Position numbers and translations under genes: made by a program | In this document: in pieces, positions 58,147-64,000 of the stretch | How the letters are laid out: each line of letters starts with the position of its first letter | Position numbering within the stretch: position 1 is the stretch's first letter | Notes under the pieces: model-generated | What the model saw: only the letters and a program-made list of their open reading frames with translations | Told to the model about the DNA's origin: nothing | Databases searched by the model: none | DNA from: Amycolatopsis sp. EV170708-02-1 | GTDB lineage: Bacteria > Actinomycetota > Actinomycetes > Mycobacteriales > Pseudonocardiaceae | Reading direction: 5' to 3' | Assembly (NCBI RefSeq): GCF_022479115.1 | Contig: NZ_CP092497.1 | Coordinates: forward strand, 7,254,001-7,318,000 | Length of the DNA: 64,000 nucleotides

Positions 58147-61100
58147 CTAGCCTGAGCGGATACCGGACGCCGATTCTCCGCTGGCCGGGCTAGTGGCCAG
58201 CGGCCCAATGAGGTGGTCGGCGGCCAGACCGCCCCACAGCCGGCGGACTGCCGCGTCACCCGGAAGCTGGGTCTGCAGTCCTTGAACAAGAGTGGACGCC
58301 TCGCGCCTGCTCTCTTCGCCGATCAAACCTCGTTCTCTGAGCAGGGAGGCGCAGGCAACGATCCGCGGTGCTAGATCAGGGCTGTTGTCAAGTACTAAGC
58401 ACAGACCGGCGAGAACATCCGGTGGTGTATCGATCCTGGAGGTCGCGGCGACACACAATTCCAGTTGGGACATCGCCCACTCGTCATCCATGCCGTGAGC
58501 CAGCCCGCGTGGAGCCAACCATGAGCCGAACGCGGCAAGCACGATGGCACGCTCGTTTGAGGAGGCCACCCACTCATGTATCCACACCCACAGTCGGCGG
58601 AAACCATCCTGCAGGTGGTGGCCAGATCGCAACGAAGCAATGAGGTCGACGCCGCCGAGATGCCTAAGCCCAACGAGCAGCGCAGCGGGCGGAGCCGTGT
58701 CGAACAGGAAATGAGTGGCCGGGCCGGGCCTGTGACCGTCGGTCAGTTCGCGGATGATGACGCCGCCGATCAACCGGGCCAGATCCCGCCAGTCCCAGCG
58801 TGTGTCACGTCTGTCCTCGGTCAGGGCGCGCCGGTACAGAGGCTTGTATGCGACAACGAAGTCTGGCCGGATATGAGCGGAACCTGCCAGCAGGCCAGTG
58901 AAAAGGGCTTTCAAGTCGTATCCAGGCTGGTCGTGTTCGTGGTCGGCATCGATCACACGGTCGACGAGTTGTTGCGCGGCTGCTGGTCGGACGGCATGAA
59001 TGACTGGCAGGGAAAGCCCCTGGAGGGCAAACGCATGTGCCCGATGTCGGCCACGGACGCGTATCGGCCGCGCCACCATGTTGATCAGCCGGTCCAAGCC
59101 TCGCCGAGAAACTGCGACCGTGTCGTGCGCGTGGACCACTGTAAGCGCGAGCAACACGGCCTGCCCAGCCGGCGTATGAGAGGCCTCATCGACTAGCTCA
59201 TGTCCAAGCCAGTCAACGTCAAGGCTCTCGCGGTCCTCCGGCCAGTCGAAACGTCGCGAGACGAGGGCCCGAACGAGGCACCTCACCTGGGCTCGGTTGG
59301 GCAGGTGGTCGTTTGACAGCAGCTCACGCAGCGCACGGAACCACGCCTTCCCTGGTTGCACAGTGGGCTGCAGCGGGTGACCACTGTCGCGCCACGTCCG
59401 CATCATCTGGCGACTGCACAATGCGCTGACGCCCTCATCCCAGTCTTGGGCGAGCGCTTTGTCGGGCGACCGCACGAGTTCCTCGGCGCGCCGGACCGAC
59501 AGTCGCATCGCTTCGGGCAGCTCGGGTGGCCGTGGCGCGAGGGGGAACTGGTGAAGCGCTGGTTGGTGCGCTGCCAGCAACTCATGTGGGCTGATATCCG
59601 CGAGGTATGCCGCGACGAGCGGGGTGTCGGGCATTGTGGCCGACGCAGGTTCGACCACAAGGGAAGTATCGTCAATACTGGCCGACAGGGCCGCTGTCGC
59701 GTCATCCTTACCGGCTTTGTCAAGCTTCTCGCGAACGAGGCGCCGCTCTTCGGCTGCGAGTCGCGGCCACTGATTGCCCAGGAGTTTACAGTATTCCACC
59801 CGGACGGTCGCAGATCGGATGAAGTCGCGATTGCGCAGAGCGGCGAGAACGTCACTGCGCGGAGCGTCTGGCAAGGCAAGGAGCATCAGGCGCACGCGCG
59901 TTTGCAGGCCCAATTCTGGATAGTCAGAAGTTAGTTCTTCGACGATCTCGGGCCAGGCACACGGCTCGCTCTCGACAATATCGGTCCCGAGGTCGACCAG
60001 AGCAGCGAGTACGTCGGCGACAACGGCTGACTCGGTGGTCGGCCGCGCTCCTTCCCACGGGTCTCGCGCAAGCAGATGTGATCCATCGGTGATTGGAGCA
60101 GACCCATCGAGTTCGCGGGTGTACCAGTCGAAGAACAGTTTCAACGCGGGATGTTCGCCAGCTGGGTCATCCAGCGGGTATTCGTGGTGGTCGACGGCGA
60201 GATCGTCAGCGAGTTTGCGGGATATCTGACCGACGCTGGCGGCAAGGATGGAAAACAGCGGTTTACGAGCGGAAGGAGGCGTGTAAAGCCGCAGGTGTCT
60301 GATCGCCGGATACAAGGATTCGTCATCGAGGATTCGAGGACGAATGAAGTCATCTGCCGGATCGAAATGGAGGGCCAGCAGGCGACTGAGCCGACCGTAC
60401 GCGATCTCATTCTGCGCCTGCTCCCCGTCGGGTGTCGCGGCTGTCCGCAGCACCAGTTGGCCATACCAGGCCGGATAGCGGACGAGCCCGTGGCCGTCGA
60501 GCCGAGCGATGATGCGATGCATACCCTGGCCCAGCCAGGTTTCAGCAGCATCGCAGACCCGAGCTGCGTTGGCCTGATCGAGGCTGCATGCCGCTCGAAC
60601 CACATCTTCGTGCACGCGGACATTCGTCGTGGCGTTACCGATACCGATCAGCAGACGAGCAAACCCCTGAGCATCTTTGATGCAGTGGGCAATCCTGGCC
60701 AGGTAGCGCGACGGCGGCCACGGCGTTTGATCAAAAAGGTCTGTCGGATCCGGTGGACCCTTGAACAGGTCCTGGCCGGCCAGGAGTGACCACCACGCAG
60801 GGTCTACCAGCTCATTGAAGAATAGTGCCATACAGACCACGTTCCTCGGAATGAGGCTGGCGAGTTGGCTCGCCGCATCCGTCGCCGGAGGAGAGGTACG
60901 CAGCTCGTAAATCTTGTCGAGGACTAGATGAAAGTTCTGTTCGTAGCATGCCAACAGCGCGATGGTCACCTGACATACATTATTTGCTTTCTCCACCAAG
61001 TCCGGCGTCATGCTTCGCGGGACGCCAAGACCGTGGCGATGCGCATACTTGTGCAGATTAAGGTTCGACCACATCGGCTGAATGACTGACGGCAGATCAA

Positions 61101-61593
61101 GGTAGCGCGCCAGAAGTCGTTGCTTGCCCTTGTCATTCAGTTGTTTCAGTTCGGATTGCGCGTCAGCCGCGGACTTTTCTTCCGATGCGGCAAGCAGACG
61201 GGCGATGGGCAACGTGATCTCAACCATCGCACTCAGCATTTCACGTGCGTTGTGAAAAGCGTCGCCGACCGGGGTTAGCCGCCGATCATGCTCTGCGATC
61301 GCTTGCAGCATCGCGACGTAGTGACGAGCTGCCGCCGGCGCGACCTGCTCCAGTCGCCGGCGCACCTGCTCCTGATCTTCACTGAGCACGTTCGTCACGT
61401 CGAACTCTTGCCGTTTCGGCGGCCATGCCGGCGGTGCGGCGGTCCCGATGCTGAGTACGCTCGCGAATAAGGCACCCGCGGTCGAGGTACTGGTGAGGAA
61501 ACCCCCGAGATGGGAGCGCTCGACTTCATCCTCCCGCCACGGCTCACCGAGCGCAGGGGAGGTGGGCTGACATGGCCAGTCCTGCGTCCGCAT
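58147..61593 (-). CDS. Large protein of unknown function in the tRNA-Ala island
   Basis: 1148 residues from ATG 61593 (GAGGGG about 6 nt upstream); the frame is open slightly further but without a site. It is almost entirely helical, with no signal peptide, membrane helix, P-loop or recognised motif. Segments such as VRRRLEQVAPAAARHYVAMLQAIAEHDRR and EMLSAMVEITLPIARLLAA suggest a scaffold. Codon use and G+C are visibly less GC-rich than the genes before the tRNA, pointing to horizontal transfer. Its neighbours at the right edge are defence-type genes, so a role in defence is possible but not shown. Confidence 0.75.
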   Translation of the reverse strand: MRTQDWPCQPTSPALGEPWREDEVERSHLGGFLTSTSTAGALFASVLSIGTAAPPAWPPKRQEFDVTNVLSEDQEQVRRRLEQVAPAAARHYVAMLQAIAEHDRRLTPVGDAFHNAREMLSAMVEITLPIARLLAASEEKSAADAQSELKQLNDKGKQRLLARYLDLPSVIQPMWSNLNLHKYAHRHGLGVPRSMTPDLVEKANNVCQVTIALLACYEQNFHLVLDKIYELRTSPPATDAASQLASLIPRNVVCMALFFNELVDPAWWSLLAGQDLFKGPPDPTDLFDQTPWPPSRYLARIAHCIKDAQGFARLLIGIGNATTNVRVHEDVVRAACSLDQANAARVCDAAETWLGQGMHRIIARLDGHGLVRYPAWYGQLVLRTAATPDGEQAQNEIAYGRLSRLLALHFDPADDFIRPRILDDESLYPAIRHLRLYTPPSARKPLFSILAASVGQISRKLADDLAVDHHEYPLDDPAGEHPALKLFFDWYTRELDGSAPITDGSHLLARDPWEGARPTTESAVVADVLAALVDLGTDIVESEPCAWPEIVEELTSDYPELGLQTRVRLMLLALPDAPRSDVLAALRNRDFIRSATVRVEYCKLLGNQWPRLAAEERRLVREKLDKAGKDDATAALSASIDDTSLVVEPASATMPDTPLVAAYLADISPHELLAAHQPALHQFPLAPRPPELPEAMRLSVRRAEELVRSPDKALAQDWDEGVSALCSRQMMRTWRDSGHPLQPTVQPGKAWFRALRELLSNDHLPNRAQVRCLVRALVSRRFDWPEDRESLDVDWLGHELVDEASHTPAGQAVLLALTVVHAHDTVAVSRRGLDRLINMVARPIRVRGRHRAHAFALQGLSLPVIHAVRPAAAQQLVDRVIDADHEHDQPGYDLKALFTGLLAGSAHIRPDFVVAYKPLYRRALTEDRRDTRWDWRDLARLIGGVIIRELTDGHRPGPATHFLFDTAPPAALLVGLRHLGGVDLIASLRSGHHLQDGFRRLWVWIHEWVASSNERAIVLAAFGSWLAPRGLAHGMDDEWAMSQLELCVAATSRIDTPPDVLAGLCLVLDNSPDLAPRIVACASLLRERGLIGEESRREASTLVQGLQTQLPGDAAVRRLWGGLAADHLIGPLATSPASGESASGIRSG

Positions 61594-62219
61594 GGCTACC
61601 CCTCTGCCAGATCCTAGCGCGCCTCTCACGCACGACTTGGAGATGCTACTGCTGCGCGTTGGCAATTGACGAGCCGATCAGCCGCTCTGGCCTCAGATTG
61701 ATGATCGCCCGCCACAACGAAGAGCGCAGTCGCTCAATCGCCTGCGACCTGTAGACGCTACAACGCGCTGAGATATCGATGAGAAAACCGGTAAAGTGGG
61801 GCACGTCGGCGAATCCTCTTCGCACTATCGGACTGCCTGGCGCTGCAGTTGCCGGTCGCTTGGTCAGCCAACGCCGTCACCGGGGCCAACTGAGAGCGCG
61901 TCGGTGTCATACTTGACATCAGGCGCCCCGCCACCGACGCGATAACATTTCGCCCTGTCCGAACCACACCGAAGCCCGGCACACTCACACAATCAAGCCC
62001 CGCACACTCACGCAGCCAGAGCTTTGCGGCAGAGTCGCCCATGGCCGAACCGGTGCAACCGTCCGCCACCCGCACACATCGGCATGAGCGGACATCGATG
62101 CCAGACCGCTAGTCGAGCCACGGATCCCAAGTCCAACCCGGCGACGATGACTGGCACTGATGATCCGCAGACGGCATATGCTCGCGAGCATCGAACTAGA
62201 CGAATACTTTCCTCGACAC
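61594..62219. other. Non-coding interval in the island
   Basis: About 625 bp upstream of the large unknown gene and downstream of the STAS-like gene. Short frames on both strands look like chance. CACACTCAC occurs twice near 61980-62010 (in CGGCACACTCAC and CCGCACACTCAC). It must hold the promoter of the large gene, but I cannot pick one with confidence. Confidence 0.35.
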
Positions 62220-62789
62220 TTATACAGGCCTCTCGGACCACGAACCTGGAATCGTGTAAACGAATTCTTTTCCGCCCCTGTTGGCCGGAATGCTCTTTTC
62301 ACGCTTGAGCGTGCCGCTCGACACAAGGCGTTTCAAACGATTATTGACATTCTGCAGTGTGACCCCAAGACGTTCAGACAGCTCCCCTGCGCGAAAACTT
62401 CGCAAAGCAAAAGCTTGGCGATACGTCTCGTCAAGATGCTCTGGCGCACCTATCAAACGAATTTCACCACCATCCACAGTGGCCGCCATCAACTCGCGTC
62501 GATCAAGGCAGACCTGCATCGTCTCGAGAGTCTCCTCGTTGAGCCCCTGCAACAGCACGGCCGATACCGCGACATCACCGGCCGCGACCGCGGCGTAAAA
62601 CTTGCCGAGGAACTCGTCGGCGAAGCTGATGGTCATGGCATCGACGCCACCGAAGTCGATGACGACCTCGATGGCATCCGATCCAGCGGACGACTCGCAC
62701 TCCAATGACTCCCGCGCCGCCTTGGCGGTACTCCGGGTGGCGAGGAAGGATCCATGCTTGCCCACCCGGTAAAGATGTTGCGAACCCAT
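62220..62789 (-). CDS. STAS-like (DUF4325) protein with C-terminal winged helix
   Basis: About 189 residues from ATG 62789 (GGGAGG 7 nt upstream). The centre has the DUF4325 STAS-like signature VVIDFGGVDAMTISFADEFLGKFYAAV. The C-terminal part is a winged helix (FRAGELSERLGVTLQNVNNRLKRLVSSGTLKREK). DUF4325 proteins are usually encoded beside a GHKL ATPase, as here. The pair recalls anti-sigma/anti-anti-sigma switches, but with DNA binding built in. It likely binds the GTTTCA operators found before itself and in the CD-NTase divergent region. Confidence 0.75.
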   Translation of the reverse strand: MGSQHLYRVGKHGSFLATRSTAKAARESLECESSAGSDAIEVVIDFGGVDAMTISFADEFLGKFYAAVAAGDVAVSAVLLQGLNEETLETMQVCLDRRELMAATVDGGEIRLIGAPEHLDETYRQAFALRSFRAGELSERLGVTLQNVNNRLKRLVSSGTLKREKSIPANRGGKEFVYTIPGSWSERPV

Positions 62790-62802
62790 CACAAAGCCTC
62801 CC

Positions 62803-62825
62803 GGTTTCAATGAAACCATTGAAAC
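62803..62825 (-). promoter_or_regulatory. Three-part GTTTCA operator, copy 1
   Basis: Read on the minus strand there are two GTTTCA half-sites 3 nt apart, then 1 nt and the inverted half TGAAAC. The inner pair forms a perfect 15-bp palindrome (62803-62817). It ends 13 bp before the STAS-like start codon and lies between that gene and the GHKL ATPase gene. Confidence 0.6.
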
Positions 62826-62839
62826 ACAAGCCGCGAGAA

Positions 62840-63679
62840 CTAGTAAGGATGTACCCGCAAAGAAGCCCAGGTTCCCGCCACGTCGACATCGGCAGACACG
62901 CACGTCGGACGCCTCGAATCGCCACGGCCGACAACGCTGGCGAGACCTTTACCACTGCGGAGCTGAAGGCGAGCAAGACCGCCCTTCGGCACCGCCCGCC
63001 ACAGGTCGTTCAGACCATGGCCTCGCTCCTCCCGAGTGCCAGTCACCCCCGGCTCGAGCGCCGTCTCGAGAGCAGCTACGTCGTCGACCAGGATGTCGTC
63101 GGCCACGTTGTGGCCGAGGTGCGCACGCACCCCGATTCCGGTATCGCAGACCGCGAACTCGATACCAGGCAGACCACTCGTCGCCCCGGTATAGACCTGC
63201 GCCGCAACGAAAGCGCCGACACCGCTCCACCCGTGACTGATCGCGTTGTCGATCAGCTCACCGACCCCCGCGAAGTATCTCCGGCCGAGATCGCCGTAGT
63301 GCCTCGTGAGCATCCGCCCCATTCGCTCACCCAGCCGATCGGCTCCGCCAGGAGTCAAATGCGTTACTTCGAGCAGACGATCCGGCAGGTCCATTCGCGG
63401 CCCGCCCGGGAGTTCGCCGACTACGTCCGTACCCGGGGGCAGGCTGCTGATGACATCCAGGCGCTCGAGGTATGACGCGACATTGTGATCACGCGGCGTA
63501 ATCAGCCGCACCTTCTCCCCCCGCGATCCTGCTGCCCGAGCGAGCGACACGATCGCCGCGAGGTCCAGCGGCGACGCGAACGTGAGCCGCCGACTATCCA
63601 AGACCAATGAGCCGTTCTCCGGCTCGACTGGACAGAGACGGCGCAGCAGCGGCCGCCGGCCGACGAGCTCGATGCGCAC
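62840..63679 (-). CDS. GHKL (HATPase_c) ATP-binding protein
   Basis: About 279 residues from GTG 63679; ATG 63742 is an alternative but overlaps the operator. A non-catalytic N-terminal region (LVLDSRRLTFASPLDLAAIVSLARAAGSRGEKVRLITP) resembles a STAS domain. The GHKL ATPase follows, with N box FAGVGELIDNAISHGWSG, G1 box FAVCDTGIGVRAHLG and G2 box REERGHGLNDLW. There is no phosphoacceptor His, so it is a kinase- or anti-sigma-type ATPase. It is transcribed towards the STAS-like gene 50 bp away and away from the CD-NTase gene. Confidence 0.75.
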   Translation of the reverse strand: MRIELVGRRPLLRRLCPVEPENGSLVLDSRRLTFASPLDLAAIVSLARAAGSRGEKVRLITPRDHNVASYLERLDVISSLPPGTDVVGELPGGPRMDLPDRLLEVTHLTPGGADRLGERMGRMLTRHYGDLGRRYFAGVGELIDNAISHGWSGVGAFVAAQVYTGATSGLPGIEFAVCDTGIGVRAHLGHNVADDILVDDVAALETALEPGVTGTREERGHGLNDLWRAVPKGGLARLQLRSGKGLASVVGRGDSRRPTCVSADVDVAGTWASLRVHPY

Positions 63680-63735
63680 GGCGCCGATTCTTCCAGATCC
63701 GACACGCCGCGTGAGGGGTGCCGCGCCGGTTCTCG

Positions 63736-63757
63736 GTTTCATCTGTTTCAATGAACC
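63736..63757 (+). promoter_or_regulatory. Three-part GTTTCA operator, copy 2
   Basis: Two GTTTCA half-sites 3 nt apart (63736-63741 and 63745-63750), then 1 nt and the inverted half TGAACC (63752-63757): the same spacing as the copy at 62803-62825. It lies in the divergent region between the GHKL ATPase and CD-NTase genes, so it could control both. Confidence 0.6.
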
Positions 63758-63807
63758 CGGTGCACATGATCGACGGGCCGCGTGCCCAACGAAGGAGGTA
63801 CTCGGGC

Positions 63808-64000
63808 ATGGCCGGGGAGAGGAACGTCGACCACCAGGTCCTGGCGGCATTCGCCGTCACACGGGTCAACATTTCGAGCGACGACGCCGCGCAGCGCCGA
63901 GCGCAGGTGAATCACCTGCGGTTCCGGCTCGAGACCCACATCGCCGCGGCCCCGGACTACGACCTGGTCAAGCTGCGCGCGTCGGGCAGCACCGCCAAGG
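63808..64000 (+). CDS. CD-NTase (SMODS/CBASS-type nucleotidyltransferase), N-terminal part
   Basis: The frame starts at ATG 63808 with AAGGAGG 9 nt upstream and runs off the right edge after 64 codons. NISSDDAAQRRAQVNHLRFRLETHI and then APDYDLVKLRASGSTAK is the usual opening of DncV/CD-NTase proteins, with the GS of the nucleotidyltransferase site. Such enzymes make cyclic oligonucleotides after phage infection and activate an effector. The catalytic Asp residues and the effector gene lie outside the window. Confidence 0.72.
   Translation, partial: MAGERNVDHQVLAAFAVTRVNISSDDAAQRRAQVNHLRFRLETHIAAAPDYDLVKLRASGSTAK

Follow-up and report, generated by a model that had tools for sequence, protein, structure and literature searches.

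A candidate CapK/CapS-like kinase and repressor pair facing a CBASS operon in Amycolatopsis, with an operator conserved across actinobacterial loci

The window, that is, the whole stretch of 64,000 nucleotides that was analysed, occupies positions 7254001-7318000 of the 9.66-Mb single-contig genome (9,660,387 bases) of Amycolatopsis sp. EV170708-02-1. At its right end, a STAS-GHKL gene faces a CD-NTase gene on the opposite strand across a 128-bp gap and is followed by a gene for a STAS protein with a winged helix (STAS-wHTH). The features are as follows:

62220-62789, minus strand: CapS-like gene for a protein of 189 aa with a STAS domain (DUF4325) and a C-terminal winged helix (Pfam, hhalign, AlphaFold2)
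62825-62804, minus strand: putative operator 1, GTTTCA-ATG-GTTTCA-T-TGAAAC, lying after the kinase stop and before the STAS-wHTH start
62840-63679, minus strand: CapK-like gene for a protein of about 279 aa with a STAS and a GHKL kinase domain, GTG start (hhalign, predicted fold)
63736-63757, plus strand: putative operator 2, GTTTCA-TCT-GTTTCA-A-TGAACC, in the divergent gap that separates the kinase gene from the CD-NTase gene
63808-64000, plus strand: CD-NTase gene, cut by the window end, first of a divergent CBASS operon (SMODS above the Pfam cut-off)

A preliminary description had read this arrangement as a CD-NTase gene facing a GHKL ATPase gene that is followed by a DUF4325 STAS/winged-helix gene, and Pfam and profile matches bear out that order. 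The 62220-62789 protein scored above the Pfam cut-off for DUF4325 (E 8.5e-6) and for a winged HTH (HTH_24), and both domains aligned with CapS at a profile E of 7.3e-9 (hhalign). The top matches in a PDB profile search were CapS entries (9Z71 and 9Z72), covering the wHTH part only. An AlphaFold2 model was obtained with a pLDDT of 89.2, and its STAS domain lay near RsbS in a fold comparison; Foldseek returned no match to the model at E<=0.001, and the CapS entries 9Z71-9Z73 were absent among the matches listed by the fold search (structure library to 8 April 2026). The predicted phospho-acceptor S55, the counterpart of CapS S54, is present in 118 of 121 STAS-wHTH rows, and the candidate DNA-contact residues N147, K153 and G172-G173 align with CapS N145, K151 and G169-G170, with N147 and G172-G173 found in all 121 rows. 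Three proteins without the phospho-serine (P0009, P0018 and P0095; glycine in two, alanine in one) may for that reason be uncoupled from a kinase.

For the 62840-63679 protein, the sole Pfam match was a sub-threshold STAS_2, and a profile search against PDB sequences gave nothing relevant (best E 0.12). The protein aligned with CapK from residue 40 onward at a profile E of 1.4e-14 (hhalign). Foldseek alone placed gyrase B domains first among 19 matches at E<=0.001, and comparison of Foldseek's best 1000 chains by VIA-align identified SpoIIAB as the closest fold to the predicted structure, with SpoIIAB, UsfX and RsbW as the nearest set. The active-site asparagine N144, the counterpart of CapK N218, is kept in 120 of 121 kinase rows, and D178, G180 and G182 are also conserved. 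For this GHKL protein, a SpoIIAB-like protein kinase is more likely than a mere ATPase. Among the nearest named relatives is an A. thermoflava protein (85% to the window kinase). In PADLOC, the pair drew no more than short partial matches, the kinase to DrmA (E 2.5e-6) and the STAS-wHTH protein to SoFic (E 8.2e-4).

Extension of the sequence to the right, as the preliminary description had proposed, revealed an eight-gene CBASS operon past the window end (L002:5808-14228) encoding CD-NTase A, HORMA, TRIP13, CD-NTase B, E2-E1, JAB, PDDEXK-SAVED and TIR-SAVED. All eight genes have a Pfam match above cut-off and PADLOC matches, and CD-NTase A also exceeds the NCBIfam cut-off for CBASS_cyclase_a. 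The operon belongs to CBASS in that a CD-NTase stands with effector and accessory genes in one operon; it is composite, encoding two cyclases and a pair of SAVED effectors (PDDEXK and TIR), and we take it to combine type III-like and type II-like CBASS parts. The same gene order was seen in L047, where TIR-SAVED is cut by the stretch end, while the order is rearranged in L008 and the operon is present in part in L010. On the same strand as the pair, a gene at 58147-61665 (minus strand) encodes a protein of about 1150 aa that went unmatched in searches of Pfam (E 0.1), NCBIfam, PADLOC and PDB sequences.

Loci were chosen by similarity to one pair protein and not by neighbourhood, from genome contigs (23 loci), further genomes and one plasmid; at E<=1e-3 the two genes gave 262 and 192 relatives. 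After re-fetched copies (L048-L051, of L008, L026, L012 and L017) were dropped, 33 loci were examined, and 27 of them, the window included, carry an intact pair in which the kinase gene is directly followed by the STAS-wHTH gene. The kinase is broken or absent in L019, L025, L029 and L058, and in L056 and L057 the kinase is present and tblastn found no STAS-wHTH gene. In these last two, the related STAS-GHKL kinase genes (L056:2482-3737 and L057:7449-8716) precede a short gene that appears STAS-like by eye and has no detectable wHTH. Some of the 27 pairs are closely similar (L002/L047, L020/L021, L022/L023 and L027/L028). The pair is rare: of 394 genomes of the class, 3 had a STAS-wHTH match (one the window's own, one truncated), and a kinase match occurred in 4 of 297 genomes from the family to which the window belongs, with its own genome counted, and in 2 of 297 and 6 of 294 genomes of two other families (two of the six weak).

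The neighbouring operon is divergent from the pair in 27/27 loci. On the basis of Pfam, PADLOC and tblastn from scanned to unscanned loci, it is CD-NTase-led in eight (L002, L007, L008, L010, L013, L014, L016 and L047), L014 showing a CD-NTase alone beside transposase-like ORFs. In 18 loci the facing operon is one of ubiquitin-like conjugation, of multiubiquitin/ThiF/JAB types plus two of Bil type (L027 and L028); none of the small ubiquitin-like proteins of L009, L024, L026, L027, L054 and L055 reached a Pfam cut-off, and these loci were assigned by their ThiF, JAB or Bil neighbours; in L009, JAB and not ThiF exceeds the Pfam cut-off. Linkage to CD-NTases or other defence genes, which the preliminary description had named as a check on homologues, was thus found for 26 of the 27 pairs. 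In L053, the two facing genes (L053:5669-8228; 272 and 483 aa) matched nothing above the Pfam cut-off and nothing in PADLOC. The 272-aa gene adjoins the operator and the 483-aa protein ends in stretches that look hydrophobic by eye; we regard this as a candidate unrecognised immune operon.

Both putative operators share the three-part build that had been proposed for them, and GTTTCANNNGTTTCANTGAA has exactly two perfect matches in the 9,660,387-base genome, namely operators 1 and 2. The position given earlier for operator 2 (63736-63757) is correct, and that for operator 1 (62803-62825) was off by one, the site lying at 62804-62825, 15-36 nt upstream of the STAS-wHTH start codon. With two mismatches allowed, GTTTCANNNGTTTCANTGAA matched five further places in the genome, against 0 for the reversed control; in the window, its two matches compare with a shuffle mean of 0.10, two being reached in 1 of 100 shuffles. 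The outer 22-mer alone is less selective, matching operator 2 and two other genome places at one mismatch, and 62 places at up to two mismatches versus 51 for the reversed control. A search for sigma-70-like promoters found none in 62700-63900, and neither operator showed a promoter consensus.

The pattern TT(C/A)A-Nx-T(G/T)AA, with half-site letters taken from the window sites and the published CapS site, was then scanned in the 27 loci, in the 300 bases that precede the matched kinase start and in some 130 bases spanning the kinase/STAS-wHTH junction, with spacings of 0-25 left open. The N10 spacing was present in 54 of 54 control regions (27/27 divergent and 27/27 junction), so that the operator which the preliminary description had proposed to look for in homologues was recovered. 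An N1 pair, in which the inner third half-site is perfect, occurred in 14/27 divergent and 14/27 junction regions, and every other spacing in at most three loci. Across 200 dinucleotide shuffles, the N10 form averaged 0.07 and 0.105 of 27 (maximum 1 and 2), and the reversed control gave 0. The N1 pairs are nested in N10 sites with one half common to both, which accounts for the three-part build. This build is real, but the universally conserved part is the outer inverted pair, TTCA-N10-TGAA, within which the inner pair reads TTCA-N1-TGAA. The nested form is present in Amycolatopsis (L002, L007 and L047), Lentzea (L008), the Streptomyces loci and L015 (Actinobacteria bacterium OV320), is present in one of two sites in Micromonospora L010 and Salinispora L023, and is absent from the other Micromonospora loci, L024, L026, L052-L055 and the Janibacter plasmid L034. 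A conserved fourth half-site, which would make two interleaved wide palindromes, was considered and rejected: of the 28 three-part sites, 0 hold it perfectly and seven come within one mismatch.

In 14 loci (L009-L014, L016-L018, L022-L024, L027 and L028), with STAS-wHTH starts taken from the aligned predicted proteins, the junction site begins at -13 and the proposed start falls within its right half, which would fit a leaderless transcript or an additional effect on translation.

A comparable system is the CapK/CapS kinase-repressor switch, published in June 2026 (Chambers et al., EMBO J 2026; PMC13373217) and covering 443 loci. CapK consists of an N-terminal HTH followed by STAS and GHKL domains and is activated by ssDNA, for which the ssDNA-stacking W68 is needed; CapS is a proven repressor whose phosphorylation, with loss of the dimer, accompanies induction by DNA damage (PMC13373217). 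The CapS half-site is TTAA, arranged as a narrow (N1) palindrome at capS and a wide (N10) palindrome at the operon, which lies downstream of capS, and a two-dimer model was published for the narrow sites (PMC13373217). The words 'Streptomyces', 'Micromonospora' and 'actinobacteri' do not occur in the main text of that paper, and among the matches listed from open-licence PMC papers it is the only one that appears to describe such a pair. The window pair resembles CapK/CapS in its gene order, the STAS-GHKL kinase gene standing immediately before the STAS-wHTH gene, in the conserved phospho-serine, DNA-contact residues and kinase asparagine, in adjoining immune operons (CBASS, Bub-like and Bil for CapKS), and in having one site before the STAS-wHTH gene and one at the immune operon with spacings of N10 and N1. 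However, the kinase starts within its STAS domain and lacks the N-terminal HTH (about 279 aa versus 368 aa for CapK, at about 25% identity), the operon is divergent in all 27 loci instead of downstream of capS, the half-sites are TTCA/TGAA and not TTAA, and both places carry N10, which encloses N1 in roughly half of the loci, whereas the published system has N1 at capS and N10 at the operon.

In a maximum-likelihood tree built from 35 kinases, 16 actinobacterial rows and 16 CapK rows formed separate groups at 100/99 each (bootstrap not settled); the search for CapK homologues listed 120 of 361 matches. With the differences above, we place the pair as a CapKS-like sister branch and not as CapK proper. 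The L056 and L057 kinases join the actinobacterial side on long branches, and BLASTP matched the window kinase more closely with L057 (E 3.4e-12) than with even its best CapK row (E 2.0e-9). Since the partner genes of L056 and L057 have no detectable wHTH, this placement suggests that a wHTH partner may have been recruited twice.

VapK is an HTH-less STAS-GHKL kinase with F54 in place of CapK W68, and HTH-less CapK homologues served as queries for VapK in the methods of the same study (PMC13373217). The window pair shares with VapK/VapS (VapKSC) the HTH-less kinase and a STAS partner with a phospho-acceptor, but its partner has a wHTH and its neighbour is a CBASS or ubiquitin-like operon. CapW, a WYL-domain factor, and CapH/CapP, an HTH protein with a peptidase, are likewise local transcription regulators of CBASS-type operons (PMC13373217), but contain no kinase. 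The preliminary description had presented an ATPase and STAS switch that binds DNA as a control logic different from such regulators; the logic appears largely right, but its novelty is removed by CapK/CapS. That the pair may control the CD-NTase operon via a shared operator is well supported by conservation, both of linkage (26/27) and of the operator (54/54).

Taken together, the pair most likely represents a remotely related actinobacterial sister branch of the CapK/CapS switch, in which the STAS-wHTH protein acts as repressor at both promoters and is released by the kinase. The direct basis is the gene pair, the homology, the conserved phospho-serine and DNA-contact residues, the operator with CapS spacings and the immune-operon linkage; repression, phosphorylation and monomerisation are carried over from CapK/CapS. 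The STAS-wHTH protein would dimerise via its STAS domain and bind the two 22-bp operators, operator 1 fronting its own gene and operator 2 serving the kinase gene and the CBASS operon, such that the bound dimer would hold both promoters low. A signal of infection or damage would switch the kinase on, S55 of the STAS domain would be phosphorylated, and the phosphorylated dimer would dissociate and leave the DNA, allowing expression of the CBASS operon and of the repressor itself. The kinase and its DNA-binding partner thus probably keep the immune cluster off until phage or stress appears. This would extend CapKS-type immune control to Actinomycetota in a divergent form with its own operator. 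Several features sit less easily with a CapK/CapS relative: the missing HTH that defines CapK, the divergent operon, the separate kinase groups with the nearness to L057, and the lack of a promoter consensus at the sites, so that the sequence does not tell repression from activation.

A further such feature concerns the signal. Within kinase residues 1-22, a stretch outside the hhalign profile alignment, no aromatic is conserved (at most 14 of 121 in any column), whereas W68 is invariant in 17 CapK rows. As a refinement of the sister-branch reading, the same switch could be activated by a cue other than ssDNA, such as another nucleic acid, a nucleotide or a phage protein; we consider this conceivable but somewhat short of an even chance. 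By eye, the corresponding stretch of the Sphingobium CapK that lacks the HTH (L071) contains GGW, and VapK has F54 at the W68 place (PMC13373217); both speak for this refinement. Against it, the profile alignment starts at residue 40, so that the matching position was judged by eye, and ssDNA binding could rest on other residues. Because of the missing aromatic, the alarm signal sensed by the kinase can be put to a direct test.

The STAS-wHTH protein could instead activate from both sites, under positive or negative control by the kinase. There is no promoter match over the sites that would demonstrate blocking, and MarR-like wHTH proteins can activate; nevertheless, we consider activation unlikely, given the homology to CapS, a proven repressor (PMC13373217), and the position of operator 1 before the protein's own gene, where the site overlaps the proposed start in 14/27 loci, which fits blocking. 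The nearness of the kinase fold to SpoIIAB, UsfX and RsbW (among Foldseek's best 1000 chains) and of the STAS domain to RsbS would also suit classical partner switching, with the kinase as anti-sigma factor, the STAS-wHTH protein as antagonist and a sigma factor as output. This seems very improbable, since the STAS protein has its own wHTH with N147 and G172-G173 in every row, Pfam identified no sigma factor among the pair and the eight operon genes, and the operator lies in the control regions of both pair and operon; unlike SpoIIAB/SpoIIAA and RsbW/RsbV, the output here would be DNA binding by the STAS protein and not sigma-factor release. That the palindromes serve some unrelated regulator or simply follow from composition is hardly credible, considering their presence in every control region against shuffle means near zero and an empty reversed control, at spacings equal to those published for CapS.

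A more specific form of the sister-branch reading, which we offer as speculative and rather doubtful, is that of a separate actinobacterial lineage in which two CapS binding modes are overlaid in one composite site and the kinase reads a non-ssDNA signal. Because TTCA is directional, the wide and narrow pairs can be seen both to read TTCA..TGAA, to share one half and to point the same way; if the published two-dimer model holds, two repressor dimers would have to interleave. Such interleaving stays hypothetical because the fourth half-site is not conserved. Half-sites with a direction speak to an orientation that cannot be read from the self-complementary TTAA of the published system, and the two published CapS half-site spacings were recovered here from sequence alone. 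If the composite-site reading is true, one operator type would mark a class of immune operons, including unrecognised ones (L053); the operator can in any case be used to search for further immune operons.

Nine proteobacterial plasmid loci were fetched for comparison, of which L033, L066, L067, L068 and L071 were read; L069, which has no annotation, and L070, L072 and L073, where no complete kinase gene is annotated immediately ahead, were excluded. A narrow TTAA site precedes capS in L033, with wide sites after it. In L066, a wide site follows capS, and a narrow and a wide site with one half in common lie next to each other before it; L067 shows a narrow site ahead of capS and no other, and the same scan found neither form in L068. 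On the Sphingobium plasmid L071 (NZ_CP020540.1), an HTH-less kinase is followed by CapS and then a multiubiquitin operon, and this kinase belongs with CapK (E 2.6e-46 to 1.8e-37 among the matches listed). Between its capS and the multiubiquitin gene lies TTCAATGGTTTCATTGAA, the same 18 letters as the core of window operator 1, at this one locus in another phylum. The branch-specific N149-N150 of the recognition helix had been a candidate for dictating TTCA over TTAA and was discarded, since the Sphingobium CapS has S-T at these positions yet a TTCA site.

Finally, viral contigs contained no exact composite operator, and a scan of them for relatives gave 29 stretches that fit a pattern, of which 0 were confirmed. 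The kinase (62843-63676) matches phrog_3364 (E 5.6e-16), a phage protein family of unknown function, which means that phages carry relatives of the kinase.
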